A DNA stretch of 64,000 bases from Acholoe squamosa. Taxonomy: Eukaryota > Annelida > Polychaeta > Phyllodocida > Polynoidae. The notes below the pieces were generated by a model, which saw only the letters and a list, made by a program, of their open reading frames with translations, had not been told where the DNA came from and made no database searches. Where the stretch lies: the NCBI GenBank assembly GCA_949317995.1, contig OX439039.1, forward strand, positions 17,289,282 to 17,353,281, written 5' to 3'. Shown one piece after another: positions 9,526 through 25,620 of the stretch (within the stretch, counting starts at the first letter, position 1; the number at the start of each line of letters is the position of its first letter). The translations under genes and the position numbers were made by a program.

Positions 9526-10021
9526 CCTTCCAGGTTTTGTTGCACTATCATCGCTGCTCAGCTCAGAGATCTTTCTGCACGATACATATATTTGCAATGT
9601 ATTACTTCCTAAGAGAACACTTTGTTGCTGTGTGGTGCAAAATGACCTCTATTGATTTGATGAATTTGGTGCTTCAAAGAAAATATTGGTGTGTTGGTAA
9701 AGGGAAATGTGGTGATATAAGTAGCTACCGTTGCTAGTGTGAAGACATTGTAGTAAGGATATGTCACTAAATGCAAGTTTTTGTTGCTTATGCCAAATAA
9801 AAAAAATTGTTTCCAGTTACCCTATAATTCTTTTTGTTTTGAAATTTTTAGAGAATTTTAAAGGATTTTAGAGAATGTTTTCGATTTTTAAGAATTTTTC
9901 ATCACTTTCCCATGCATATAATCTTTGGGTGTAAAGTTAACAGCTTCATTAGGCATATCTTTTGCATATTTTTTACATTGGTCATATTAGTCCAGTAGCC
10001 AGATGCCCAAATATGGCTCAA
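9526..10021. other. AT-rich flank of the composite transposon
   Basis: Repeated GAATTTT/GATTTTAGAGAAT words lie at 9840-9900. A segment AGTCCAGTAGCCA at 9989-10001 resembles the inverse complement of the right flank at 25412-25424, so the transposon end may reach this far. No gene. Confidence 0.4.
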
Positions 10022-10030
10022 CCTCGCACT

Positions 10031-10453
10031 AAGGTATGGCAAAGGTTTTTTGATTGATTTTGGACAATTAGGGTATGGCGATTCAGAATCTGCCTGTTGC
10101 CGGCCTGGTAACATTGAGCATTTTTTGTTATTCATGGTTGCTTAGCAACCACTTAAATCAACGAAATAGCATGACAAAGGGGATAAAACATGCACAAATA
10201 AAGAAGGTAATCATTCCTACCCCCCCTAAATCCAGGTCAGACATTCTATTTATGCCAATGGCTTGTTGCTAAGAACCTCATGTTTCCTAGCAACAAGGAA
10301 TTCTTCATGTTTTTGCTTAGTAACAGCATGTTTTTGCTTAGCAACAGCATGATTTTGTTTAGCAACAGCATGTTTCTGCTTAGCAATCACAATTTAACAG
10401 CAACCTTTCAAGTCTTCGAGTGAGTATTTCTACACTTTCTTTCATTTTATCGT
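10031..10453 (+). repeat. Left terminal inverted repeat (423 bp)
   Basis: Inverse complement of 24970-25392, starting AAGGTATGGCAAAGG. By eye there are about 11 mismatches and no net length difference. The outer 240 bp differ at about 3 positions and the 21-bp repeat zone at about 8. Weaker similarity continues outward (CCTCGCANN) and inward to about 10540 (CAGTTGAAATT, TAGCAAT, CTACA words). The 65-residue open frame at 10075-10272 is repeated in the right copy at 25150-25347 only because the DNA is repeated. Confidence 0.93.
10279..10390 (+). repeat. 21-bp subterminal tandem repeats
   Basis: Four to five copies of CATGTTTTTGCTTAGCAACAG start at 10306, 10327, 10348 and 10369, exactly 21 bp apart, with a looser copy at 10279. 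The same array, inverted, is at 25030-25140 in the right repeat. Subterminal arrays of this kind are usual transposase-binding sites. Each unit holds a TTGCTTAGCAAC core that also resembles the metazoan RFX X-box. Confidence 0.85.
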
Positions 10454-10649
10454 ATTAATAGTCCCGGACACATTCATGTCCCTTTATATTGCCAGTTGAA
10501 ATTCTATTACTAGGTCACATAGCAATCTACAGAAAACATCAAAAACAGTTATAAACAAGAGTAATATTTGGCATGAATTCACATTTAGTAGACCTATGGG
10601 ACACATGTCATAAGTTCATAGATATCACTGCAATGAGATAGTGATATGT

Positions 10650-10800
10650 GTTACCCCCTTCCCATTCCATGTCAGATATTCTACCCTTTCATGTTGCCTA
10701 GCAACAAGGAATCATTCAGGCTTTTGCTTAGTTACAATAAATTGCTGCTTAGCTACCACAAATTAATGCCACCTTTCATGCATTTGAAAGAACAATTCTG
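10650..10800 (+). repeat. Diverged second copy of the inner TIR segment
   Basis: The order of words in 10220-10440 recurs here in weaker form: GTCAGAYATTCTA, then CCTAGCAACAAGGAAT, then TTTTGCTTAG, then CTTAGCNAYCACAA, then CACCTTTCA. This is a direct, partly deleted duplicate of the inner part of the left inverted repeat. It contains a perfect palindromic-type word GTTGCCTAGCAAC at about 10690-10703. Confidence 0.7.
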
Positions 10801-11563
10801 TGGTTTCATACATTTATTCGTGTTCATAGACCATGAAGCAATAGTAATGATATGTGAAATAACAATATTGCATATACTTTCTGTATTCTTCATGTATGTA
10901 CCTTTAAGTTATTATGATTCCTGATGTTACTACATCATAAATTTATTAAAGAATGTTTACACCAATTCTTCAATAAGTATGTCATGTAAGTTGTATGTAT
11001 ATCACTACAAAGGTTATCTTGTTCATATATTTTTTATCTAGGCATTAATTATTTGTACATGTGATAAAGATGGTGATTTCCCATATTAAATAGCATGGTG
11101 AAGAATGTCCTCATATCAGACATTAGATAATAGTTCATAGTCAGTATTTGCATTCTCTGTCACTGTGTCTGTGGTCCTGCCTTCCCCATACAAAAACCTG
11201 TACACAAGAAAGAAACATCTTAGAATAATTGGGAATGAATTTAGGAATATTTTCTTTGTGGTTTATTATGGTTTGAGTTGTTTTGTCAATCTTCAAAATG
11301 CAAAGTTCCTAATTTCCAAATATAATTTAACTTACTGTATGATCAACAAGGTTAAAAATCAATTTACATATGAATGGGCAATACCTGCTTGAAACTTACT
11401 TTTCCAACTTTGGATAAATTTTTTATAACACCTATAAAGTACAGTGTCATGATGTTCTGGTGTAGTATGGGATATATTCTGCCCTTTTTAATGAGAAGTA
11501 GAACTAGGAGGTAACAGTAACATAAAGATGCATTTCCTTACCTCTTACATAATGTGCATGCTC
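10801..11563. other. Transposon interior, downstream of the broken gene
   Basis: AT-rich sequence between the inner left repeat and the 3' end of the minus-strand gene. Open frames at 10646-10924 and 11165-11392 show no domain. It probably corresponds to the 3' untranslated and subterminal part of the element. Confidence 0.45.
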
Positions 11564-11815
11564 TTAAATGTCATCATCCTCAATTAGGTCAGTACTTTCA
11601 TTGTTAGATAGTGGATTGGCACAATTTCCAGTCATATGACACTTGCAGAAGGTTGAACATGGCAGGTCTGCTCTTGTACAAGCACACCTTTTGGTTGCAC
11701 ATGGCTGATTGGCACTGCAATTGCAAGCCACCAATTTCATTAGTTCTGGTGGGACAACTTCTGACATTTCAGAGACATGGTATGCCCGACTTGATTTCCC
11801 AACCATAGTTTTCAA
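11564..11815 (-). pseudogene. C-terminal CXC segment of the transposase
   Basis: Reads VVPPELMKLVACNC and then a cysteine-rich block spaced like a tesmin/TSO1-type CXC motif: CNC, then C-ATKRCAC, then LPCSTFCKC, ending CANP. Ten cysteines fall in about 40 residues (roughly 11600-11735). Such blocks bind zinc and DNA. The frame differs by one from the upstream nuclease segment, so a single-base indel lies near 11785. It ends in an acidic tail (EDDDI) and a stop at 11564. Confidence 0.75.
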
Positions 11816-12516
11816 TGTCCAAAGTTGGAGGGGCTAACTTTTCTGCTGACTTCCGAATTATGATCTGCAGATGCGCTCTTTTGATATGAGGTTTGAGAGC
11901 AGGATCTGTAGGTGGCAGGGATATAATCTTCAGAGTTATCTTCTGGTGGATGAAGATTGAATATCTTGCTTCATTCATGGATTTCTTCTTTATTTTGTAC
12001 ATGAGACTAATGAAATGACTGCCCGCCTTCAACACGTCAGTTTCAGTAGCCTCTTGCTCTCCAAGTACTTCTATATTGACACCAGGCATTTTAAATTCAG
12101 ACAATGCAGCTCCTCTCCCTTTGTCAAAGAAGCTAACTGTGTCACATCCCGATAGCGCATGCACCCCCAAAATCTTGAGGGATTTGTCACCAAGTTTGTT
12201 TGCTGTTTCATTAATGTTGATGATTTTGCCATCTGACTTGCGCATTGTTATGAGGGTAGCACTCTGCCACTTCCAGCAAAAGTAGACAAGCAGTGCAAAT
12301 ATGTCTGTGTCATCAGATACCTCTTGAAGATGTTTTTTTTTGCTGGTCAATCAGTATCTTCATGTAACTGATAATGATACAGTCAGCTTCTTCATGTTTT
12401 TTCTAGTGGCCTTCAGATAACTGTTCGGACAGCATATCTGGTGAATAAGTTGCTTCTTGTTCGCTGTGCTCTTCATGATAGTATCTCTGGATGGTAATGG
12501 GGTTTCTTGTGTGAGT
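11769..12516 (-). pseudogene. XPG/PIN-like nuclease segment of the transposase
   Basis: Three spaced acidic motifs are visible: EEADCIIISYM (coded at about 12360-12393), SDDTDIFALLVY (about 12280-12317) and GVHALSGCDT (about 12139-12168). Their order and spacing fit the XPG-I/PIN metal-dependent nuclease fold. Downstream comes LPPTDPALKPHIKRAHLQ and then NYGWEIKSG, which in this family precedes the CXC block. A run of nine A/T near 12338-12346 carries a frameshift that separates the EEAD motif from SDDTD. Stops upstream of EEAD show further decay. The catalytic acids themselves are intact in the sequence. Confidence 0.75.
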
Positions 12517-12962
12517 TTAATCATTGGCTGGTTTGTTCCTTAAATGCTCTTGAGTTTTGATGGAGGTGCCATTGTACCTATTAAAGATAACTATGACTTC
12601 ATGATCTTTTGCTACTGCTCGTGTGATGTTATTGGTAAGGGTTTTAATTGTTCCAGACTTTGGCCATGCTATATGGTAAAGCATTTCATTGCCGTCTACA
12701 AGGTCAACATCAGGGCTGTCAGGAGGTAGAGGTACATGGTTGAGCATTTCTATGCCATTTAACAGTTCAACATCAGAACTGTCACTAGGTAGAGCTCCAT
12801 GGCAGAGTGTTTCATTGCCATCTAACAGTTCAAGATCATTATTATCCCAAGGATCATTATATCTAGCCAGTTTATGCAAGAGATATGACTTGTTTCCTCT
12901 TTGGAGTCCTCCATACTCATTAAAAATGGCAGGAGGTAGAGGTGATGACTCATAGGTGAGGA
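12517..12962 (-). pseudogene. Transposase segment with triplicated 21-residue unit
   Basis: Begins LTYESSPLPPAIFNEYGG and ends VIVIFNRYNGTSIKTQE, matching the part of the family just before the nuclease motifs, where a DGN-ML-HIAWP block is expected once. Here that block is present three times in tandem (see the 63-bp repeat). At 12950-12962 the frame is cut by a SINE-like insert, on the other side of which the upstream frame ends VTLEQLLTYD. Confidence 0.75.
12671..12859 (-). repeat. 63-bp tandem triplication inside the pseudogene
   Basis: The words ATGG-AGCATTTC-ATGCC...ACA(A/T)C...TC recur with a period of exactly 63: anchor bases at 12674, 12737 and 12800. In translation each copy gives a 21-residue unit of the form (V/L)(E/D)L(L/V)(D/N)G-E-L-H-LP-DS-D. 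The copies have diverged by substitutions but not by indels, so the reading frame through the array stayed open. Confidence 0.88.
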
Positions 12963-13093
12963 CTGTGTGTGGTGCACATATGCGCGGGCACTGACACATT
13001 CCTCTTTTAAATTATCAACCTGTGAAGCACGGGATAGCCACTTAGTGCCGCTAAAGTGCTGTAAAACACAAATCAATCAATCATAGGTGAGGA
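12950..13093 (+). mobile_element. Chimeric SINE-like insert, 118 bp, with 13-bp TSD
   Basis: The 13-bp sequence TCATAGGTGAGGA occurs at 12950-12962 and 13081-13093. Between them, about 40 bp (GTGTGTGGTGCACATATGCG and what follows, to about 13006) match the centre of the 185-bp SINE family of this window. The rest ends GCTGTAAAACACAAATCAATCAATCA, an (AATC)n tail unlike the (ACTC)n tail of that family. Removing the insert and one duplication restores the transposase frame. The target duplication and simple tail indicate LINE-mediated retroposition. Confidence 0.88.
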
Positions 13094-13616
13094 GCTGTTC
13101 CAGTGTCACATCTCTCTTTTGAGATAGGACTAGCAATCTTCCATACACCTTCTCCATGTCATAGGTAGTTCTTTCACCAATTTTAATCCCTTTTATAGCC
13201 TCCATTCTGGTCACCTTGGCATGAATTGGGCCATGAAAAACAGATGGGAGACTACCAATGAACTGTGCTGCCATACACTCACCGATGGAGAGTGCATCAG
13301 CGACATTGATTCTATCATCAATGATTCATCCATTTAAAATATTGAACAGGACCAGTTCACTTTGTTTTAATGAATGTGGATGTGCAGCTATCTCAGCCCG
13401 AATTTGTTTCCATTTTTCTTCTGTTCTTCCCTCTTCCTTGTGTCTGTCAACACTTGTATCAAGGTCTTCCTCTTTAATAAGGTTCGAACATTTCATCCAT
13501 GTCATGAGATAGCATATTACAAATATCCTGAGAGAGTACCCACCGGGCAGTTTGGTTAGGGTCGAGTGTCATTCCAACAAGACCTCCTTTGGCCTTGCCT
13601 TTTCGAATATATAGGC
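13094..13616 (-). pseudogene. Transposase segment upstream of the nuclease half
   Basis: Read 5' to 3' it begins YIRKGKAKGGLVGMTLDPNQ, passes HPHSLKQSELVLFNILNG, a TGA stop (13326-13328), INVADALSIGECMAAQFIGS, and ends YGRLLVLSQKRDVTLEQLL. These blocks occur in the same order in the invertebrate family I recall. A one-base frameshift lies near 13480 (after EMFEP). The segment joins the next one across the 118-bp insert. Confidence 0.7.
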
Positions 13617-13925
13617 AAATGTTCACGAGGGGGGAGAATTTTTGAGGGTTATCTCACGCGCCGATGCGGCACCTGATCGGCAATGAGTGTTCATTTGCAT
13701 TTATTTCATGTTATTTTGATCTAAAACTGCTGAATTACAATAGAATTTACCAGAATGACTCCCCGTGCGCACTGTTTACATCGCCATCTTGGACCTATGA
13801 AGTCATCAAATGGTCACGTGACCTCGGCGTGTGATATTTTCACGGGTTATCTCACGGGGGGTGTGAGATACGGCCCTCGAGTGCTAGAGCTATGGGCTGT
13901 CAGTATCTCGGGCATATCAACATGA
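13617..13925. mobile_element. Unclassified insert of about 310 bp with YY1 and E-box words
   Basis: This block separates ...DQFCEQTFI from YIRKGKAK in the broken gene and has no coding logic of its own. GGGTTATCTCACG occurs near both ends (about 13637 and 13842) and TATCTCAC/GTGAGATA forms a short hairpin at about 13846-13869. Less exact inverted words (CTCACGCGCCG and CGGCGTGTGAT) suggest terminal inverted repeats. Inside lie CGCCATCTTGG (YY1-like) and GGTCACGTGACC (a perfect E-box palindrome). The gene words GTGAACA and ATTT lie on both sides, but a clean target duplication could not be defined. Confidence 0.45.
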
Positions 13926-14187
13926 AATAAATGTCTGTTCACAGAACTGATCTGCAGAGACTGCATTCCAACTACCTGGTTTGTGATGGCAAACATGATT
14001 ACCAAGCAAGTAAAATGATGCTGCCTCTTTATCAAGTTGTGCCAATTCTAGAAGGTACCATGTTACATATCTTGCATAATTCCAATGGCCGGCTGCAAAA
14101 AAGTAAGGTACCATCTTCTGGATACAATACACATACAAGGTGAAATTTGCTTCCCTTTCTGCTCTCATGAACATATTATGCGCCAGT
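13926..14187 (-). pseudogene. Transposase middle segment (FAAGHWNYAR block)
   Basis: Encodes MRAEREANFTLYVYCIQ, MVPYFFAAGHWNYARYVTWY and SADQFCEQTFI. In the family this block follows the GGMH-LMSFLG block and precedes the GG(L/I)VG block. In the correct frame it continues through the SINE target site into RLWVDCFLLPVLLAHN, showing that the SINE at 14200-14387 landed in coding sequence. Confidence 0.75.
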
Positions 14188-14399
14188 AACACTGGAAGTG
14201 AGTGAGTGAGTGAGTAATAGATGTTTAACGCCATTTCGACAGCTAAGGTCATATTCATGGCGAGAACGACATTACACAATTTCACAGAGGGATGTGTCAG
14301 TGCCCGCGCATATGTGCACCACACACATCCTGAGGGGATAGGAAAGAGGAGACATAGACCCTTTTAAGTGGGCTAGGGAGGCCCCGAAACACTGGAAGT
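14188..14399 (-). mobile_element. SINE copy 1 (188 bp), 12-bp TSD
   Basis: AACACTGGAAGT is repeated at 14188-14199 and 14388-14399. The body between runs on the minus strand from GGGGCCTCCCTAGCCCAC to an (ACTC)n tail, seen on the plus strand as GTGAGTGAGTGAGTGAG. It is the same family as the copies at 24246, 41749 and 52097. There is no recognisable tRNA or 5S A/B-box, so the promoter class is unknown. Confidence 0.93.
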
Positions 14400-14662
14400 A
14401 GGAAGCAATCTACCCAAAGACGACCTGCTGTTTATTTTCCAGGGATTCCCATGATTCCTTGCCAGATTGTACTGATTCTCTCATGATTTCAGTTGCTACC
14501 ATACGAAAACCTCTCATTGCCTTTGGCCAAGCCTCACCATTTAGCATGTTCATAGTTCCATTGTATGCATCCCCAAAGATTTCCTCCAATCCTGATCCTG
14601 CCATGAGATTTCCAATGGATCCCAAGAAAGACATATGCAAATGCATACCACCTGTTCTAGGT
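14400..14662 (-). pseudogene. Transposase segment next to the LINE insertion
   Basis: Starts in the 12-bp LINE target site (coding PRTG) and reads GMHLHMSFLGSIGNLMAGSG and then MNMLNGEAWPKAMRGFRMV. On the far side of the LINE (20683 onward, minus strand) the frame reads QIKWSNPNRWKYLLPRTGG, so the two parts join exactly through the target sequence. A frameshift lies near 14425. Confidence 0.8.
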
Positions 14663-14823
14663 GCCCCTGTGGAGTGGGGAACCTCTAAAGTGACTAGAGG
14701 TAGTAGAATAACTTCACCGGGATGCTTCTGTGCAGACCGAATCGTAAAAGGCGAGGAAAACCATAGGCTGCAGCACCCCATTCTTGCTCGCCATCCTTGA
14801 ATGGTTCAAAATGGCTTAAAAGA
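14663..14823 (+). other. LINE 5' untranslated region
   Basis: Sequence between the target duplication and the first plausible ORF1 start. It must hold the internal promoter of the LINE, but I recognise no specific element. A run of ten C at 14830-14839 follows the ATG at 14824. One extra C would put that ATG in frame with ORF1, so a slip in this run may have removed the original start. Confidence 0.6.
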
Positions 14824-14843
14824 ATGGATCCCCCCCCCCTGCA

Positions 14844-16712
14844 ATGGAAAGCACACCCATATCAACCCCAATGTCGGCTGCAGGCCCGACGGAAAACAAA
14901 CTGTAACGTCCCTTGGTAGGCAACCAGGCTGAGGACGGCTTATCAGCTACTGGAAGAAAAACTGAAACAGAAGCCCCCTGGGGCCTAAGTACAAAAGAAA
15001 CAGACCGCGCCACGGCCGGTAAAAGATCACGTGAGAGCACTGGCGAAAATGCTAGTGCCTCTAAAAGAAGCAACAATGTAGAAAGAAGTAACGACAAAGA
15101 AAGCAGTAACAATGAAGAAAGCAATAATAATGAAGAAAACAGTAATAGTGAAGAAAGAAGCAACAAGGAAGAAGAAAACAACAACAAAAAAGAAAGACGC
15201 AGGAAAGAGTACAATGCCCACAACTGGCCCAGATTCCTTGTTGTGGAGTCTAGTGAAGAGGGTGAAACACTAGCAAAACTGTCACCATTTGCCATAGGTA
15301 AGGCTCTGGAAGGCCATGCTGGAATACCTAAGAGTGTGAAAAAGACCAGGGCAGGAACCTTGCTTATTGAAACTTACAAAAAGTCTCACAGCATAGGACT
15401 GCTTAAAATGACCAATATGGCAGGAACTCCAGTAAAAGTCTCTCCACACAGATCCCTCAACTCCTCAAAAGGAGTCATTCGCTGGTGGGACCTGGTGGGA
15501 ACCCCCGAGGAGGAGATTACCGAGAACCTGTCGTATATAGGAGTCACAGAAGCAAAGCAGATGAAGGCGAGAAGGATGGGTAAGGTAGTCGAGACTGGTA
15601 CTTTTGTACTGACTTTCGACTGCCCGACGCCACCAGATTCCATCAAATGCGCGTATCAAAACATCAGGGTAGAAGAATACATCCCGAACCCAATGCACTG
15701 CTTCAAATGCCAACGTTTTGGACACACTTTGAGAAAATGTAACAACCGACAGAGATGCGGAAGGTGTGACCAAGAGCATGAAACAGAAGGATGTAGGGAG
15801 GTACCCCACTGCACCAACTGTGGTGGAAACCATCCCGCCTTCTCCAAAAAATGCCCCAAGTTTATAGAAAAGAAGAAGATCCAAACTGTACGTATAAATC
15901 AAAAGATATCCTTTTCGGAAGTAAGAAAAATTGTTCAAGCTCTAAACCCTACTACCACACGTACTGCATTATTGTCAGACGTTTTCAAACCCAGCAAAAC
16001 TGTGGCATGTCAGACACTATCACCGTCTGAACTGGCTGAAGAGCTACAGCCTCCACCAAAGGCTCAAACCCAAACCTTTGGGACAAAAACGGGCACTCTC
16101 ATCATGCCCCCTAGGAACCTTCCTGGTTCCGTCCAGGTGCCAGCAGGGCCCCTCGAGGGGTCACTGTCACCTGCCTCAGTATCCAAACCATCAGGATGCC
16201 ACCTACCCACCCCAAATCCGGGACAATGTTCTAGGGATTCTCATAAGCCTACATCATCTGGTTCTAGCCAAAAAACATCAGGCTCCAACCGACCAGTTTC
16301 TGGTGTTCGGCCCACAGAGACCCACAAAGGAAGCCGGGCACACCCCAAGCCCACCCCAGGAGGTACTGAATGGGATAAACACTATCCCTCTGAACCAAGC
16401 TTGGTAAACATCCCTACACCCGCAAGCTCCTTCTCATCAAAGGCTGCGTCACCACCACCTCCCCCCAAAGCCTCCCCCAACTCTCAACACAGAGTCAACA
16501 AGGAGGTTCAGGGGAGGTTCGCAGCTAAGAAAATACCACATAAAGAACTGACCACACTAACAAAACAAGAAAAAGCCAAAACAGCACAGGTAAAGACCAA
16601 AATTAATAGAAATATCACCCACACATCCAACAGATTTAAAGTACTTGCTAATGAAATGAAGGAAGCGTCGGGCCCAGCCGACCACAAAACTACCACCAAA
16701 AATGGAAGATAA
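14844..16712 (+). pseudogene. LINE ORF1, gag-like nucleic-acid-binding protein (stop-disrupted)
   Basis: In-frame ATG codons occur at 14844 and 14871, then a TAA at 14904-14906 breaks the frame, after which 599 codons are open to 16712. A single C-to-T change (CAA to TAA) would explain the stop. The protein has a Ser/Asn/Glu-rich low-complexity stretch (about 15070-15200), a folded part, and three CCHC knuckles from about 15699: CFKCQRFGHTLRKC, CGRCDQEHETEGC and CTNCGGNHPAFSKKC. The C-terminal third is rich in Pro, Ser and Lys. Such proteins bind LINE RNA into a ribonucleoprotein. ORF1 overlaps the ORF2 start by 11 bases in a different frame, which suggests coupled reinitiation for ORF2 translation. 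Confidence 0.88.
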
Positions 16713-17541
16713 CGAGGTCATATTACAATGGAACTGTAGAGGTGCTAGAGCCAATAGAGAAGACCTTGAACTTCTCTGTGCAGAATTCAAACCATCTGCA
16801 ATATCCCTACAAGAACTTAAGGTAACAGACTCTAGCTCCCTTGAAATGAAGGGCTACAACATATACTCCAAGATACCTCCAACAGAAACACCATCAGGGG
16901 GAGTAGCCATCATGGCCTCAGTAAATTACCCACAAAGGGAGGTTAGTCTCGACACAGAGCTTCAGGCAGTGGCAATAAACATCACTATCAATGAGCCAAT
17001 CACCATCTGCTGCATATATCTCCCACCCAAAGAGAAGATACTCTACACTGACATAAGCAAAGTGATTCAACAACTTCCCACTCCCTACATCCTCATGGGT
17101 GACTTTAATGCCCACAACACCATCTGGGGATCCCAAAAATGTGATGAAAGGGGGACAACTATTGAAAGGATACTAGACCGCAAATCATTATGCATCTTCA
17201 ACAACAAAACACCCACATACCTCCACCCAGCCAGTGGGACCTACAGCTATATAGATCTAACCATAGGTCACCCAAACATCTTTGCCGATTATGGATGGAG
17301 TGTTCATGATGATCTTTGTGGAAGTGATCACTTTCCTATCATCCTAAAAACTCAAAAACATAACAACAACAACCAAAGGAACCCAACATGGAAAATACAA
17401 AGAGCTGACTGGGATGAATTCCAGAAACTCTGTGAAACTTCCTTCCTGCCATGGGAACATGTGGCTGAGAAGAGGGACGCCATCCAATACTTTACAGATA
17501 CCCTTTTGGAGATAAGCAAGATGAGCATCCCCATAACATAA
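16702..17541 (+). pseudogene. LINE ORF2, endonuclease domain
   Basis: Begins with ATG inside the end of ORF1. APE-type endonuclease motifs appear in order: QWNCRG (residues 8-13), LQELK (about 37-41), MGDFNAHN (about 132-139), YIDLTIG, and SDHFPI (about 208-213), which hold the metal and active-site residues. It nicks target DNA to prime reverse transcription. The frame ends ...SIPIT then TAA (17539-17541). The same frame continues KKPSKKSRPWYDD without shift, so this is a point-mutation stop within one long ORF2 and not a natural terminus. Confidence 0.92.
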
Positions 17542-19965
17542 AAAAAGCCCTCCAAAAAATCTCGTCCATGGTACGACGACAAATGCAAAGCAGCTCGGAA
17601 GGAACGCAAGAGGGCCCTCAGAAAATTTAACAACAACATAATCCCAGAAAACATGTACAACTTCCTCCAGACAAGGGCGAAAACCAAGTTAACGCTGAAA
17701 ACAACTAAAAGAGAATCTTTCCAAAATTATGTTAAATCTCTCCCCTTGTCCAAATCCATGAAAAAGATCTGGCAAGCAGTAAATAGAATGAAAGGTAAGG
17801 CCAACAACCCAACAATACACCACCTGAGAGTTGGGGGCGAACCCAAAAGAACAAAGCAAGAAATTGCAAATGCACTGGCGAAGCAATTCCGCAAAACCTC
17901 GTCAATTGAAAACTGCAGCCACACATTCCTGAGACATAAAGAAAGAGAAGAATTACACAAACCCAACTTCTCCTCAGATAATAAAGAGAACTATAACCTA
18001 ACTTTTAACATTGGTGAATTGAAACATGCACTGAATGGCTCAAAAGACTCGAGCCCAGGACCGGATGAGATCCACTACCAAATGCTGAAACATCTCCCTG
18101 CCAATCAACTGAACCTGCTACTGGATATCTTGAATGATATCTGGGTAAATGGGAAATATCCCAGATCTTGGGCAGAGGCATTGGTCGTACCCATCCCCAA
18201 ACCAGGAAAAGACCACAGTGAAGCCTGTAACTATAGACCCATAGCAATGACAAGCTGCCTTGCCAAAACTATGGAAAGAATGGTGAACAACCGACTGATG
18301 TGGTACCTTGAGTCTAATGATCTCATGAATCCACTTCAGTCAGGATTCCGGAAAAATCGTAGCACGACAGACCATCTTGTCAGGTTAGAACGTTACATCA
18401 GAAAGGGATTTGCAAATAATGAACATGTGGTTGCCATCTTCTTCGACCTGGAGAAGGTCTATGACACCACATGGAAACATGGAATCCTGAAAGACATTCA
18501 CAAACTAGGGCTCCGTGGAAGGCTTCCCATGTTTGTATCAAAATTTCTTGCCAACAGAGTATTCAGTGTACGCCTTGGCACTACTCTCTCAGACAGAGTA
18601 GAACAAGAAATGGGTGTCCCCCAGGGCTGTGTCCTCTCTGTGACCCTGTTTGGCATAAAGATTAATGAAATAACCAAAAACTTACAAAATGACATCAATT
18701 GCTCTTTGTATGTGGATGACTTTGTCATTTGCTACAGATCGAGGCATATTCAAACTATTGAAAGAAAGCTTCAACAGGCCCTGAACCACCTTGGAACCTG
18801 GAGCTGCCAAAACGGCTTCAAGTTCTCACAGACCAAAACCACCTGTGTCCACTTCTGTCGCAGAAGAGGATGTAGAGAAAAACCAACGCTCCACCTCCAG
18901 AACACGGCACTTGAAGTCAAAGAAGAAGTGAAGTTCCTGGGGCTGATATTTGACAGACTACTCAACTTCAAACCACACATCGAATACTTGAGGAGGAAAT
19001 GTCAAAAAGCCATGAATCTCCTGAAAGTGCTTTCCCACACCGACTGGGGTGCCGACAAAGAAACATTACTGATCTTATACAGGGCCTACATCCAGTCAAG
19101 ACTAGACTATGGCTCTATCGTATATGGATCAGCTTGCCCCAGCTACTTGGACAGGTTGAAGCCTATCCAGAACCAGGGACTGAGATTATGCCTGGGGGCA
19201 TTCCGTACATCTCCAGGAAAAAGTCTAGAGGTGGAGGCAAACATCGCCCCCCTTGAGCTTAGGCGAGAAATGCTGTCTATGCAGTACGCAGTTAAAGTAA
19301 GATCAAATAAAAGAAACCCAACATATGAGACACTGTTCACCGAAAACAATTCAGTGTACAGGAAAAAACCGAACATGACCCAACCATACTCGTACAGAGT
19401 GAAAAGACCTATGAAAGCAGCAAAATTAGATGTGATCAAAACCAGGGAGATAAAACCACCCGATAATCCCCCATGGCTACAAATGAAACCAAAGATCATC
19501 TTCACCCTGTGCAAAAACAAAAAGGCAGAAACAGACTCAGTGACCTTTAAAGATCAACTCCATGGGATAGAAAAAGACCATAGTGAACACCTGGCGGTGT
19601 TCACAGATGGTTCTAAGGAGGGTGACAAAGTAGGCTATGGAGTACACACGCCATATGGCAACCTGAAAAGAGGCCTCCATCCCAAAGCCAGCATTTTCAC
19701 GGCAGAGGCTAGCGCCTTGCTACATGCTCTAGAATATGCCAGGATATCAACTCACCAGAAATTCATTGCTCTGTCAGACTCCAAGTCATGCCTTGAAGCA
19801 ATGAAACAATATGAACCAAACAATCCCTTGATACAAGATATCAGGGACAAAACCAACAACCTTGAGAAAGCAAAGAAAGATGTGGTTTTCTGCTGGCTGC
19901 CGAGCCATGTTGGCATAGACGGAAACGAGGCAGCAGATGAAGCGGCAAAGTCAGCACTGGATTGA
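17542..19965 (+). pseudogene. LINE ORF2, reverse transcriptase and RNase H
   Basis: Continues ORF2 in the same frame past the TAA. Reverse transcriptase blocks are SSPGPDEIHYQML, NYRPIAMTSCLAKTMER, LQSGFRKNRSTTDHL, AIFFDLEKVYDTTW (first catalytic Asp), MGVPQGCVLSVTLF, and LYVDDFVICY (YVDD box, about 18703-18732). RNase H follows from about 19590 with FTDGS, FTAEASALLHAL, LSDSKSCL and WLPSHVGIDGNEAADEAA, which supply the D-E-D-D catalytic set. The presence of RNase H separates it from Jockey, CR1 and RTE types and supports the I superfamily. The frame stops at 19963-19965, just after RNase H, because of a frameshift. Confidence 0.94.
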
Positions 19966-20306
19966 CACCTCGAGAAGTGCCAATCCCACACACGGACCTG
20001 ACATCAACCATCAAGAAATATGTGAAACTGAAATGGCAAGCTGACTGGAACAAGCAGCATGAGAACAAGCTACACTCCATTCAGCCTCAACTGAAAGGAA
20101 AGGATGAAAAAAGAAAACTATCCAGATCAGACGAAGTGAAACTAACACGTCTACGAATTGGCCACACAAGGCTTACACACGAACACCATCTGAAACGTGA
20201 AGCCCAACCAATGTGCCAAGAATGCAAGAAAGCTGTCTTCAACACAATAGAAACAAAAGAACTCCTGAACTTCCTCAAAGAATCAAACTTATATAAGTAC
20301 ATATAG
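19962..20306 (+). pseudogene. LINE ORF2 C-terminal tail (frameshifted)
   Basis: In the neighbouring frame the sequence continues VPIPHTDLTSTIKKYVKLKW, LTRLRIGHTRLTHEHHLKRE and MCQECKKAVF, then ends LLNFLKESNLYKYI and a stop. I and Nimb-type proteins carry such a tail after RNase H, with a CxxC...H...C motif. Here the CxxC (MCQEC) is followed almost at once by the terminal LNFLKES block, so the H...C half and about 35 residues appear deleted. The size of the deletion is an estimate from family memory. Confidence 0.8.
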
Positions 20307-20682
20307 ATCATACATACTTATAATTTAAAAAAAAAAAAAAAAAAAAAAATGAAAAATGGCTGGTCCGTCGGTGTCAGGATAATGTGACCGACCGGGTGAT
20401 GTGTCTACAGTTTGCGACATGTTACCTGCGTGAGGCAGCACAATAAAGAGGGGCCTTGAGCCACGAGTGGTATTTCACCACTACGAGCCGTGTCCCACTG
20501 CTACAAGCAGACTCATAAATATATGCACGCGCGCACACACACACACACCCACTCATATGCGCAAACCCGAGGTAGGCCCGCAGCCTACCATTACTATTGA
20601 ATAGTTTAAAATTCTTGAATGTCTGAGTTCCTCGATGGCCCCCGGACGTAAAACTAAACAAACAAACAAACAAACAAACAAA
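20307..20682 (+). other. LINE 3' region: A-run, UTR-like block, (AAAC)n tail
   Basis: After the ORF2 stop there are 23 A residues (20327-20349), then about 300 bp with ATGGCTGGTCCGTCGGTGTC, GTGAGGCAGCACAATAAAG and a (CA)n stretch (about 20527-20548), and finally GGACGTAAAACTAAACAAAC repeats to 20682. Because the outer target duplication encloses everything, this is most simply one 3' UTR with an internal A-run. The alternative is a separate retroposed segment that landed at the A-run. Confidence 0.75.
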
Positions 20683-21745
20683 CCTGTTCTAGGTAATAGA
20701 TATTTCCATCTGTTTGGGTTGGACCACTTAATTTGCAATAGTACTTTGTACAGTTATAGGTCAGCAACCAAGTGGAGGTATCTCTAGCCATGATACTTGA
20801 AAAATGTCTCCAAGTACATTATGCTGGTGAGAACTGTGTCTGGGTGGCTTGGTGGTGCATCTATAAGAGGACCATACACATACTTTGTTGCCTTTGAAAT
20901 AAAACAATTTTCCCTGGCCATGTGTGCCATGTAGCCAGACCATTCAGCTGAGGGATCTTCTTCTGAGTCATTGGTTATGACTTCATTGAGCCATTCAATA
21001 TCAGCATTTAGTGCTTGGGTTATTTCATCCATTTTTTTCATCGCCTCATGGAATGGTATACCATCATGACCATGGATTACTGGAGGCATTGGATTTTTTT
21101 CACCTTCATAATGCTGGAGATCATTTTCACACAGGGTATCAAGCTTGATTCTGGTCATATTGGGTTTACTGACTCTGGGTATGATGGGTCTGACTTTGTC
21201 TGCCTTTTCAACCTGATCTACACAAAGTGATTGTTGTTGAGTCAATTCTGTGACTAGGGCATGTGTTCCTCTACAGCCATTTGGAATGAAGATGTTTAGA
21301 TCATAATTGTCAATCCATGACGAGAGCTGCCCTTGATTTTTCTCAAGACCTTGGATTGTTTGAGGTTGAGATCCCATGTAAATAGCTGCTGAAGTTCTAA
21401 AGCGAAGGATCTCATCATATGTTGCAGTGATTCCATAATCATGTAATAGTGTCACAAGCTCCTTAGACCCATGTCTATGCTGTAACTTTAGAGCTAGACC
21501 CAGCGTTGTTTGATTCCAAGACTTTGTTATTTGTGCCTGTATAGCTTGGGCCATTGTAGTTGAGATCTTTGTTACCTTCTCCTGGAAACCAATGCAGATA
21601 TCAATGCTAGCAAGATTGGACTTGTACTGTCTATAGTTTTTGACTTTGAGAACTGGGCAATGTCATAGTACTGCTGTTTAGGGATCTCATTGGCCTCCGA
21701 GTGAATTTTCCTTTTCAGTTTTTGGATCATTTGGATCATTTTGGA
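20683..21745 (-). pseudogene. Transposase N-terminal half
   Basis: Protein order from 21745: HSEANEIPKQQYYDIAQFSK, SPILLALISALVS, a frameshift near 21590, then 256 open codons (21554-20784) including LHDYGITATYDEILRFRTSA, DNYDLNIFIPNGCRGTHALV and KATKYVYGPLIDAPPSHPDT, and on to QIKWSNPNRWKYLLPRTG at the LINE junction. The YDE-LRF-TSAA and YGPLID-PPS-PDT blocks are the ones I recall as hallmarks of the multi-copy invertebrate family. An in-frame TAA near 20753 gives further decay. Confidence 0.8.
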
Positions 21746-22056
21746 TCAAAGTAGGCTTGCACAACCACTGATATCCAGTTTAATGAGGGTATTTCCAAAG
21801 TGAATCTGCAATTTTGAAATGAGTTCTCTTTGACTCATCAATTCATTTTCTTTACAGAACCCGGAATATGAGTTATGCAAGTCCACAGTTGTCAATATAT
21901 GAGTTGGATCACTCTCCATAAGCTCAATCACCATCCCAATATCATTTTTATTCATTGGCTGTTCCTTATTTTCTGGTGTTTTGGCTGCCTTGATGTTCCT
22001 TGCCACCATAAATGTCTTATAACAATCCCTATGATACCTAGCATCTGCTGCATGCA
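21746..22056 (-). pseudogene. Transposase N-terminal Cys/His segment
   Basis: Reads HAADARYHRDCYKTFMVARN, then NDIGMVIELMESDPTHILTT and ELISKLQIHFGNTLIKLDIS, ending ASLL and a TGA at about 21746, after which the same frame continues. RYHRDCYKTFM looks like the second half of a zinc-binding motif, with its first half disrupted by the hAT-like MITE directly upstream. Confidence 0.7.
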
Positions 22057-22222
22057 CAGGGCTTTTGACAGGGCTGCGCAGTGCGCAATACACGCATTTA
22101 ATGCCTAAATGTCGCATTTAAATGGCTAGAATGGCCATTCATTTACAGAATGGCGCATTGTATTTGCTAAAAAGTGTGCAATTGGCGCATTGCAAAAAAT
22201 CCTGTCAAAAGCCCTGCATGCA
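22049..22222. mobile_element. hAT-like MITE, 160 bp
   Basis: Perfect 16-bp terminal inverted repeats CAGGGCTTTTGACAGG at 22057-22072 and its complement at 22201-22216. TGCATGCA lies at both junctions (22049-22056 and 22215-22222, sharing two bases with the right end), as expected for an 8-bp duplication. CAGGG termini and 8-bp duplications are typical of hAT elements. The host reading frame GAPSNLHA/HAADARYHRDC lies on both sides, so it was inserted into coding sequence. No coding capacity. Confidence 0.85.
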
Positions 22223-22286
22223 GATTACTGGGGGCACCAAGCAATCTCAGTTGCACATTATTTTTAACGCTTTTATGCCAAGTGGG

Positions 22287-22752
22287 CTATGTCATGAGTG
22301 AATTGAACGATGGGTGGAGGAATAGATGCCTGAGGGTGAGTTTGATGTGTTGTATAACTGAATGATGCTGTATTTAAAAAAGAAGTGGTTGGGAATGAAA
22401 CATTAGTATTTGGAAATAGAAAATTTTCATTAAAATGACAGGGATCTTCTTCATCCTGAAGGTGAACTGTATAGGATGATGACAACAATGGATTTGAATA
22501 CACACACAGCAGTTACAGGTAGAACCCCTACACCTGGTGGGTGGGTATTGAACTAGTTGAGCTGGACTCCCCCTGGTGGAATATATGCAAACAATCACTA
22601 TGAGCGCTTATCGGACAAATAATATTAAGAAAATGCTGTGTCATAAGTGGATTGGAGAATGGTGGGGAGAGAGTAGGTGCTTGAGATTGAGGTATATGCA
22701 TTGTAGAACTGAATAATGTTGTAGTAACAAAGTGGTTGGGAATGGGACACAA
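22287..22752 (-). repeat. Diverged direct repeat, about 119 bp, offset 347 bp
   Basis: 22287-22405 and 22634-22752 share an extended series of words (TGTCAT(G/A)AGTG, GTGG, GATG/GGTGC(T/C)TGAG, TGTAGAACTGAAT-ATG, AAGTGGTTGGGAATG). Both copies give open Ser/Thr/Pro-rich frames on the minus strand (22273-22503 and 22528-22812). They lie where the 5' part of the transposase gene or its upstream exons should be. Whether they code is unknown. Confidence 0.6.
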
Positions 22753-23011
22753 ATTGTAGCAGAGGTGTCTGGTGAAGGATTGCAGAGAATTCAATGAACC
22801 CAAAAACTCCATATTACAATTTTCTTAAGGGCTTAAATAGGTCTAAATTGTGCATATTTATATGAATAGCTGATAGCAGTTCAAAAAGGATCCAAATCAG
22901 ACCAATATTGTTGTTACATTTAATACCAATGACCTTGAATATCACCTAAGGTCACCTTAAAGTCACCAGTTTATAGTCCTAACAGGTAATGTAACCAGTT
23001 TCCTTAGACAG
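22753..23011. other. Transposon interior, nothing recognised
   Basis: About 260 bp of AT-rich sequence between the repeated segment and the TA-flanked element, with no open frame of note. Confidence 0.5.
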
Positions 23012-23989
23012 TACACTGTAAATAGTAAATGCTGTACATCTACAGCAAAAGTTGCTGGCAGCAATTGTTCCAGTAGATTTTGCTGTAGGTCTACAGCAAC
23101 TGACTTGCTGTAAAGGTACAGCAACATCTCCTGTTGAACTACAGTAACTTCTACTGTAAATCATTCTACTGTTCTTGAACAGCAAAAGTTGCTGGCAGCA
23201 ATTGTTCCAGTAGAATTTGCTGTAAATACACAGTAGATTGTAATTTGCTGTAAATGTACAGAAGATTGTAATGTTATGGTCATTGCATTTTGGTTGGCCT
23301 GACCAAGTAGAGATATGTATTTGGGCCATCATGATAGCCAGCTATGTAGCATCATTTATGACTAAATGGGTGTAAAACTAGCCATTGAGTATCACACCAA
23401 AGTCACAACAAGCAAGTGTGGTGCATTACACCATCTTTGCAACAGGCACTTTAGCTGATACACTAGGAAGCTTGGTGTCCATACTCATATTTACTTCCAA
23501 GCCACAGGAAAGGTGTGTGTGACAGAATGTAGAAGTGTCTGTTTTAGTTTATTTAGGTTAATGAAGAGTTCCACATGTTATAAAACTAAAATACAATATG
23601 TTCACTCTTGCACATTATTCAATTATGTGACACATTTCACTTCCTTTCGTAGATGAAAATAGATTCAGCTTTGAGTAAAAATTATCTGCCAAAGAGATAC
23701 TAAGGCCACCTGGTGCCAAAGCACAGAACCACAATGTCTACAGCAGTATTTGCTGTAATTCTGCATCTACAGCAAAACACTCAGTAACTGAACAGTGGGT
23801 CTTGCTGTATTTGGGGCTACAGCAAATATATGAGAGTATATCTACAGCAACACTTGCTGTAAAGTTGTATTTACAGCAACAAAGTTGATACTTGTACAGC
23901 AAAACTTGCTGTTTTTTAGATTACAGCAACTTCTACTGTATGATCACTGCAAAATCTGCTGTATGTATACATTAACTTTTTACAGTGTA
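23012..23989. mobile_element. TA-flanked inverted-repeat element with TACAGCAA arrays, 974 bp
   Basis: Flanked by TA at 23012-23013 and 23988-23989, with ends CACTGTAAATAGT and ACTTTTTACAGTG. Both arms (23014-23280 and 23735-23987) are filled with CTACAGCAA and TTGCTGTA words in both orientations, and GTTGCTGGCAGCAATTGTTC occurs twice in the left arm (about 23047 and 23188). The central 450 bp are unrelated and have no transposase frame. TA targets and CACTG ends suggest a mariner/Tc1-type non-autonomous element. The minus-strand frame at 22979-23332 is a shadow of the repeats. Confidence 0.8.
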
Positions 23990-24235
23990 GCTTAATGCTC
24001 CATTGGATATGTAGTGATTTATCAATAGATAGGCTTGAGATGGGATAAACTGTAGGCCTATAATTTGCAAGCAAAAATGTTGACTCATTCTTTCCTTTCC
24101 TCTAATATCACTCACTAGACCAAAAATGACATTATTTATTCTAATTACTGACATTATTTTCCCGAATCTGTATCAATAAATGATCTATAGTGTCTAAGGT
24201 CATATGTAACCTAATTGGTTCGTATGTAACCTACA
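23990..24235. other. Transposon interior, nothing recognised
   Basis: AT-rich sequence between two insertions, with no supported gene. Confidence 0.45.
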
Positions 24236-24444
24236 TGTGGCAAGGCAGGCTTCCCTAGCCCACTCAAAAGGGTCGATATCTCTTCTTTCCTATACCCTCA
24301 GGATGTGTATGGTGCACATATGTGCAGGCACTGACACATTCCTCTGTGAAATTGTGTAATGTCATTCTTGCCATGAATATGACCTTAGATGTTGAAATGG
24401 CGTTAAACATCTATTACTCACTCACTCACTCACCTGTGGCAAGG
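24236..24444 (+). mobile_element. SINE copy 2 (189 bp), 10-bp TSD
   Basis: TGTGGCAAGG is repeated at 24236-24245 and 24435-24444. The body starts CAGGCTTCCCTAGCCCAC and ends in (ACTC)n. It shows more differences from the other three copies than they do from each other (for example GTGTATGGTGC and GATGTTGAAATGG), so it is probably older or from another subfamily. Confidence 0.93.
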
Positions 24445-24969
24445 GCTGTTGCTACAATTACATGACAGAAAAAGGAAATTCTCTTGCCAGACTCTGTCTG
24501 TTTGTTGTTGCCATGAAGAATACAGAGTTAGCATGAACAGGCAGAGTTGGTTAGTTTTGCATTAATTTAGTTCCGTATTTTCAAAATTCAATGAATATTA
24601 ATACTTTTGCAATCAAAATTATATGGATTTTTCTAAATCAATCTATAACATTTTTATGGTCTTTGCTAGCATGATATTCATAATATTAGCGTTTCCATGG
24701 CAACCAGTGGGGTCTTAGAACCAGTTCAACTTGATCCATAGGCCTATTGAAGACTGATGAAATGCTACTATATATTTGTCTCTCAAAATTGATAATAAGG
24801 AAGACAAAGTGATTGACATCATTAAGGTGCATTAGACTGTTATTGACAATGTCTTGAGCAGAGCCTCTTAGAATATTTTAGGAATGTAGAATATTGCTAG
24901 GGAACCAACACTATTTTTGTTTTACCTGACAATTTCAACTGAAATGAAGGCTTTGTGATACATATTACA
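24445..24969. other. Inner flank of the right terminal inverted repeat
   Basis: Holds a near-perfect X-box-like word GTTTCCATGGCAAC at about 24690-24703. From about 24880 it shows weak inverted similarity to 10454-10540, suggesting that the inverted repeat was once longer than the well-preserved 423 bp. No gene. Confidence 0.5.
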
Positions 24970-25392
24970 TGATAAAATGAAAGAAAGTGTAGAAATACTC
25001 ACTCGAAGACTTGAAAGGTTGATGTTAAATTGTGATTGCTAAGCAAAAACATGCTGTTGCTAAGCAAAATCATGTTGTTGCTAAGCAAAAACATGATGTT
25101 GCTAAGCAAAAACATGAAAAAATCCTTGTTGCTAGGAAACATGAGGTTCTTAGCAACAAGCCATCGGCATAAATAGAATGTCTGACCTGGATTTAGGGGG
25201 GGTAGGAATGATTACCTTCTTTATTTGTGCATGTTTTATCCCCTTTGTCATGCTATTTTGTTGATTTAAGTGGTTGCTAAGCAACCATGAATAACAAAAA
25301 ATGCTCAACGTTACCAGGCCGGCAACAGGCAGATTCTGAATCGCCATACCCTAATTGTCCAAAATCAATCAAAAAACCTTTGCCATACCTTT
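24970..25392 (-). repeat. Right terminal inverted repeat (423 bp)
   Basis: Inverse complement of 10031-10453. It contains the same 21-bp TTGCTTAGCAAC array (25030-25140) and ends at CCTTTGCCATACCTT. Immediately outside, GCAAGGTATACCCCC and GGCTACCTGAC follow, only partly matched on the left side. Confidence 0.93.
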
Positions 25393-25620
25393 TTGCAAGG
25401 TATACCCCCTTGGCTACCTGACTATATCTTCTCCATGATGTTATCGTGACATTAAATAGTCAGGTAGATATGCCCATACATCTCTATACAAAATCAAAAA
25501 AAAATCAAAAGAAAAAAATCAAAAAAAAAATATTAAAAAGAAAAAATCCGACCTACCGACCTACCGACCCTAGGCTAAGGAATTTTGGCAGAGCGCTCCA
25601 TGACCCTGGTACAGGTATTT
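25393..25620. repeat. Flank with palindrome, A-rich run and GACCTACC repeats
   Basis: TACCTGACTAT (25415-25425) and ATAGTCAGGTA (about 25456-25466) form an inverted repeat with a 30-bp loop just outside the transposon. An A-rich stretch with CAAAAAAA units (25490-25547) leads into CCGACCTACCGACCTACCGA (about 25549-25568). No gene; the open frame at 25446-25754 runs through these simple repeats. Confidence 0.6.

Follow-up and report, generated by a model that had tools for sequence, protein, structure and literature searches.

A decayed transposon copy of probable AcademX lineage in the annelid Acholoe squamosa

The locus and its broken gene

We examined a 64,000-nucleotide stretch of the polychaete Acholoe squamosa (contig OX439039.1, positions 17,289,282 to 17,353,281; "the window" is this whole stretch). 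It holds a large element at window positions 9988-25424, with 5′-TAGTC termini, long terminal inverted repeats (TIRs) and a 3-bp target-site duplication (TSD), TAT, at 9985-9987 and 25425-25427. Between the repeats lies a minus-strand gene, broken into pieces between 22117 and 11567. The element is very probably a decayed copy of an AcademX-lineage DNA transposon of the cut-and-paste kind, working by the mechanism and spreading in trans as proposed below.

Comparisons were made within the same genome (1.48 Gb scanned, in 63 contigs), in which L-numbers (L009, L012, L037 and so on) denote loci. The pieces of the window gene were placed mainly against the protein of a related gene, L037 (L037:3138-8036 on contig C12), which is one open frame of 1632 codons, unbroken. 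Copies of the window's own family align collinearly along this protein at about 25-42% identity (best E 3e-42, for L015). The features are as follows.

9985-9987, no strand: left TSD, TAT, exactly 3 bp common with the right flank
9988-10451, plus strand: left TIR, an outer 43 bp (TAGTCCAGTAGCC...) common to copies, then the core repeat (431 nt at 97%)
10137-10149, plus strand: palindrome GTTGCTTAGCAAC in the left TIR, a candidate protein-binding site that all 20 fetched left TIRs have at this position
10137, 10333, 25056, 25077, 25098 and 25273 (six in the TIRs) and 10693 (one just inside): palindromes with at most one mismatch
11567-11833, minus strand: C-terminal nine-cysteine CXC-like block, from the sequence and a weak TCR match
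11772-12393, minus strand: second nuclease piece, motifs III-V (EEAD, SDDTD, SGCDT), in two frames; L037 residues 1364-1563, E 5.1e-11
12520-13011, minus strand: first nuclease piece, a tandem motif I segment, then motif II as FNRY (Asp lost)
13080-13325, minus strand: piece linking the transposase region to the nuclease region; blastp to L037 1088-1143, E 1.9e-4
13920-14662, minus strand: central region of the proposed transposase, two open pieces, with GGMHLHM and DQFCEQT (its E the third acidic candidate)
14663-20681, plus strand: inserted retrotransposon without long terminal repeats (non-LTR), from breakpoints, duplication and Pfam domains
20754-20768, minus strand: VADL, then a TAA in frame, next to the Asp proposed as second catalytic residue, from the copy alignment
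20787-21662, minus strand: part of the proposed DDD/E transposase, whose first acidic candidate is DNYD at 21300-21311; blastp to L037 462-679, E 1.2e-16
21749-22117, minus strand: N-terminal piece with a zinc-binding-like CxxC...YHxxC motif; blastp to L037 residues 218-256, E 3.6e-4
24971-25424, minus strand: right TIR, outer end TAGTCAGGTAGCC... on this strand, from arm complementarity and copy comparison
25425-25427, no strand: right TSD, TAT, from shared-flank comparison

The central region comprises two pieces, one at 14413-14662, with a frame that continues into the inserted retrotransposon, and one in the lower part of 13920-14363; between them is a small repeat (14198-14383). The blastp matches of the region are to L037 residues 721-777 (E 3.5e-6) and 873-956 (E 5.9e-9). 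The non-LTR insert carries endonuclease, reverse transcriptase and RNase H domains according to Pfam, and is flanked by a 13-bp duplication, ACCTGTTCTAGGT, at 14650-14662 and 20682-20694. Two more inverted-repeat pairs inside the element, 14198-14383/24248-24433 (92%) and 12964-13013/14278-14327 (94%), are probably small inserted repeats.

Three acidic motifs had been picked out in a sequence-only reading of the window, and all were located on the minus strand: EEAD at 12382-12393, SDDTD at 12303-12317 and GCDT, here SGCDT, at 12138-12152, with the cysteine block running from 11725 downwards. Two further acidic motif sites are LVDG (12691-12702) and FNRY (12574-12585). The gene is broken, since EEAD and SDDTD are read in different frames. 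The motif I segment (12668-12838) consists of 2.7 tandem units of 63 bp, which read LLDG, LLNG and LVDG, so that the LLNG unit is without the Asp; the tandem form is present in all 15 copies where the segment was found, and the segment is single in L037 and in L038, a second family described below. The Asp of motif II is lost (FNRY) in the window, L009, L010 and L011, four of the 15 copies where that motif was found. Because of the 6-kb retrotransposon insert, the frame breaks and the lost nuclease Asp, the window copy is dead.

Ends, duplications and copies in the genome

The long inverted repeats that the sequence-only reading had described around the gene are real: the core arms, 10021-10451 and 24971-25401, are 431 nt long, 97% complementary and 14.5 kb apart. 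The family is multi-copy. A genome search with the core repeat gave 203 first-look candidates, 40 of which were scored (some being both ends of one element, so that not all are independent), and 20 copies were fetched for comparison. A pattern from the left terminus had 69 genomic matches at three or fewer mismatches, including 52 with full identity across 35 bp, against none for a reversed-pattern control.

Beside the core repeat, an outer end is preserved in every one of the 20 fetched copies, with the form TAGTCCAGTAGCC... in 18 and TAG[T/C]CAGGTAGCC... in two; the 11 right ends available preserve one as well. By eye, the sequence shared past the core repeat in fetched copies is 33-43 bp, after which the flanks diverge; by BLAST against the window flanks, four of eight other repeat loci match, over 31-47 nt only. 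This core-adjacent sequence belongs to the element, so the limits first given, 10031-25392, lie inside it: an element is there, but those borders fell about 43 bp short on the left and 32 bp short on the right of the true ones, 9988-25424, which come from the copy comparison. The common sequence had also prompted the idea of a strict target-site preference, dropped when the sequence proved to be the element's outer end.

Twelve copies entered the TSD count: the window and, from the 20 fetched, 11 more. Of the remaining nine, eight lack the right repeat in their stretch, and in L013 the right repeat is incomplete. The sequence-only reading had suggested looking for duplications of 3-4 bp in copies gathered by their TIRs; they are exactly 3 bp in 11 of the 12 and 4 bp in none, L012 being retained in the count as the miss. 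Outer ends are also exchanged in places. L021 has a right-type outer end at its left repeat, and L024 has the left type on both sides, yet a matching 3-bp TSD; together with L012, whose end types are swapped, they suggest exchange between inverted repeats.

Gene matches accompany these repeats, lying within 10 kb of 36 of the 40 scored TIR matches (chance 0.0013 per match; 100 gene positions taken from match tables), and gene pieces lie between the repeats in all 11 fetched copies with both ends. From core repeat to core repeat these 11 measure 3.5-9.5 kb. Four of them (7.06, 7.47, 7.98 and 8.00 kb) make the earlier estimate of an ancestral element of about 7.3 kb plausible, while the full range leaves it unproved.

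The TIRs also carry palindromes, GTTGCTWAGCAAC, of which the window has seven at no more than one mismatch, against 0.08 expected. They resemble the X-box bound by RFX factors and are also plausible transposase binding sites. In the TIRs of L038, none was found at up to two mismatches.

The nuclease region and the proposed transposase

In the L037 protein, five acidic motifs follow one another: LLDG from residue 1190, FDRY in the block from 1232, EEAD in the block from 1336, CDDTD from 1363 and TGCDS in the block from 1425. In an alignment of the nuclease region (22 pieces, 21 loci), most rows that extend as far as the last three motifs preserve them. We compared this alignment by HHalign with 48 archaeal FEN1 sequences, drawn from 53 loci (L105-L107 were left out, and two failed a filter on length and first residue). 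The first run gave P 0.0025 at a probability of 11.8% (9.3% when query and template were swapped); a reversed control gave P 0.29 and eight shuffles P 0.21-0.84. With the alignment trimmed, as decided after that result, the local match reached P 0.0017 at a probability of 15%, and its score of 31.86 was reached by none of 200 column shuffles (highest 26.97). The local match pairs the TGCDS block with the TDYN...GIGPKKA block of FEN1, and a forced global alignment (P 0.00073, run without a shuffle control) sets all five L037 motifs opposite those of FEN1. Further weak matches include L040 with the 5′-3′ exonuclease N-terminal domain PF02739 (E 0.0039, below the cut-off) and, in three of the seven NCBIfam families listed, pol I, Xni and 5′-3′ exonuclease, each from one member and perhaps the same one. 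For the 22 aligned family members no XPG model is listed, and a PHROGs search gave no informative match. Taken together, these comparisons of sequence support well a relationship of the C-terminal part to XPG/FEN1 nucleases. Elsewhere in the genome, outside the window-family places, a full-length XPG_I match (G000:C4:85413602-85413907) lies in an 869-aa open frame.

No long inverted repeats were found around L037 within the 9 kb fetched, and its close copies are few (C6 at 95%, C12 at 91%); it could be a low-copy element or a gene kept by the host. An example of L038, at C8:78380735-78388090, has two frames, one of 630 aa and one of 858 aa, TIRs of 90% identity over 366 aligned positions with ATAGTCC ending both sides, and a 3-bp TSD, TCA, read by eye. 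For its nuclease piece, 42 of the 110 matches listed are at 98-100% identity, several in open frames of 862 codons; open frames over the nuclease region reach 873 codons. L038 is a second AcademX-like TIR family with little variation among its copies, and it was likely active recently. Its protein bears the motifs EAD, NDTD and GSDY, and its nuclease region is about 31% identical to the window-family copy L028 and 25% to L037. With nuclease regions only about 31% identical, the window family and L038 have terminus and duplication length in common as two diverged families.

The sequence-only reading took the XPG-like nuclease for the transposase. Published Academ transposases speak against this: passages of one study have Academ encoding a DDD/E transposase (PMC9587614), and those of another use an Academ DDE profile in bivalves, among 17 DDE/D superfamily profiles (PMC10294476). 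Upstream of the nuclease, acidic candidates for a D/D/E triad are kept across three families, namely DN[YF]D, ADL and the E of LEQT or GEQT, and from this conservation we infer that DN[YF]D ... ADL ... LEQT-like residues may form the triad. Accessory nucleases are described in Kolobok lineages in part of the same literature (PMC9587614), and by analogy the XPG-like part would be an added enzyme.

A C-terminal CXC block had also been claimed. The cysteine block is there, but in the window it scores 14.7 bits (E 0.038) with Pfam TCR (PF03638), below the 23.5-bit cut-off, as do all the pieces tested, the best being the relative L040 at 21.3 bits. The block is a trait of a subclade, since the window family, L037 and L040 have it and none was seen in the L038 protein.

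Assignment, probable spread in trans and known systems

By the traits described for published members, the window family is a new family of AcademX type; the assignment follows from the 3-bp duplication, the nuclease and the lack of a helicase match (no helicase family is among the Pfam matches listed for the 1632-aa L037 protein). The AcademX-like label of the sequence-only reading is borne out on these points and by TIRs tied to the gene. In the proposed mechanism, the central DDD/E transposase would bind the inverted repeats, possibly through the GTTGCTWAGCAAC palindromes, cut at the TAGTC ends and insert these into target DNA at a stagger of 3 bp. After that, the FEN1-like domain may trim flaps or cut the non-transferred strand, and the zinc-binding ends (N-terminal CxxC/HxxC, C-terminal CXC) would aid DNA binding.

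A number of observations weigh against this reading. The AcademX assignment uses described traits, and the triad comes from residues kept in just three families, all of a single genome. Acidic motifs are substituted in several related copies, such as L039, L040, L044, L047 and L053. The HHalign probabilities are low (9-15%) despite the small P values. With the L037 protein, Pfam listed only two unrelated weak families, no transposase family being among them even at E 10, and a PDB sequence search only two unrelated weak chains; the nuclease-region profile found nothing in PDB. XPG_I (PF00867) matches eight genomic places, none of them, by eye, a window-family place, and a structure model of the window's own 193-aa piece was uninformative about a PIN-like fold (predicted local distance difference test score 34.5). 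L012, with both ends in hand, has no TSD, and four of the 40 scored TIR matches (C8:36773899, C11:25608344, C3:50410027 and C16:45798717) have no listed gene match within 10 kb.

Among other explanations, an unlikely one is that another long-TIR superfamily with short duplications, such as EnSpm/CACTA, gained an XPG-like nuclease. Duplications of 2-3 bp are also known in CACTA-type elements, and the CACTAAGG letters are present at the junction of outer end and core repeat; against it, the actual termini are TAGTC rather than CACTA, and L037 shows no listed Pfam transposase family of any kind.

The shared stop bears on how copies of the AcademX-type family spread. Directly after VADL a stop stands in 10 of 10 aligned copies, and genome-wide in 24 of 31 matched copies (TAA, with a sense codon in the other seven), a count biased towards stop-bearing copies by a search pattern that was itself written with TAA, which is a further point against the proposal. 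The stop is present in eight of the 11 copies that have a 3-bp TSD, and the remaining three do not align at this point. Ratios of nonsynonymous to synonymous substitution (dN/dS) between copies are 0.63 before the stop (15 copies) and, in three later parts, 0.53 (nuclease region, 13 copies), 1.04 (15) and 0.90 (11), which points to selection that is largely, and not uniformly, relaxed. Since copies share a lesion in the transposase region yet own separate duplications, many copies, the window's included, have probably moved with protein from other copies. That the stop is no lesion, the protein being made by read-through or as two pieces, is a little less likely than a CACTA-type origin: the frequency of the stop and the dN/dS of 0.53 in the nuclease region downstream would fit, but seven matched copies have a sense codon there, the two other downstream pieces stand at 0.90 and 1.04, the unbroken L037 has no stop at this place, and additional stops differ from copy to copy.

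A stronger role for the nuclease is conceivable, and we think it improbable: the FEN1-like domain might be obligatory for a second-strand or flap cut, with stop-bearing copies mobile by trans complementation of two halves, the part made as far as the stop and a nuclease supplied from elsewhere, and possibly some read-through. Joined to the DDD/E transposase in one polypeptide, the domain would then be its working partner, not a passenger.

A chance placement of an independent repeat family on both sides of an unrelated gene, as the four matches with no gene nearby and L013 (two repeats about 2 kb apart, the second incomplete, no gene match) might suggest, can be set aside, being contradicted by the gene beside 36 of 40 scored matches and by the 11 of 11 two-ended copies that hold gene pieces within the same kinds of termini, and short versions are expected as internal-deletion derivatives. 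Viral relatives were also considered and rejected: three scans of viral contigs, with one protein each and a reach limited to close relatives, found none.

In the published passages used here, AcademX elements are defined through the enzymes they encode and the length of their duplication rather than through a mechanism that has been tested. At least two TIR families are present in this genome that share the TAGTCC end and duplicate 3 bp, yet their proteins have diverged strongly. The near-identical open copies of L038 are material for testing the role of a flap-endonuclease-like domain in a transposon, and the stop common to so many window-family copies is likely a natural case of spread in trans.

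Compared with FEN1/XPG nucleases, the family has the five acidic motifs in the same order, with a GIGxKKA-like stretch after the last; here they are joined to a transposase-like region and were missed by ordinary sequence searches. With L038 it shares the TAGTCC terminus, long TIRs, a 3-bp TSD and an acidic-motif protein, and differs in its diverged nuclease region, its CXC block and the GTTGCTWAGCAAC palindromes of its TIRs. AcademX nucleases are of XPG type. As far as the published outline of the two groups goes, AcademX combines a TSD of 3-4 bp with a nuclease, and AcademH one of 9-10 bp with a helicase (PMC10045372). AcademH is of the same superfamily by name and differs in these traits, the window family having a 3-bp TSD and no helicase listed for L037. 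With AcademX, so described, the family agrees in a 3-bp TSD within the 3-4 bp range, a nuclease instead of a helicase, and TIRs; its own outer ends, its tandem motif I segment and the stop in 24 of 31 matched copies set it apart.

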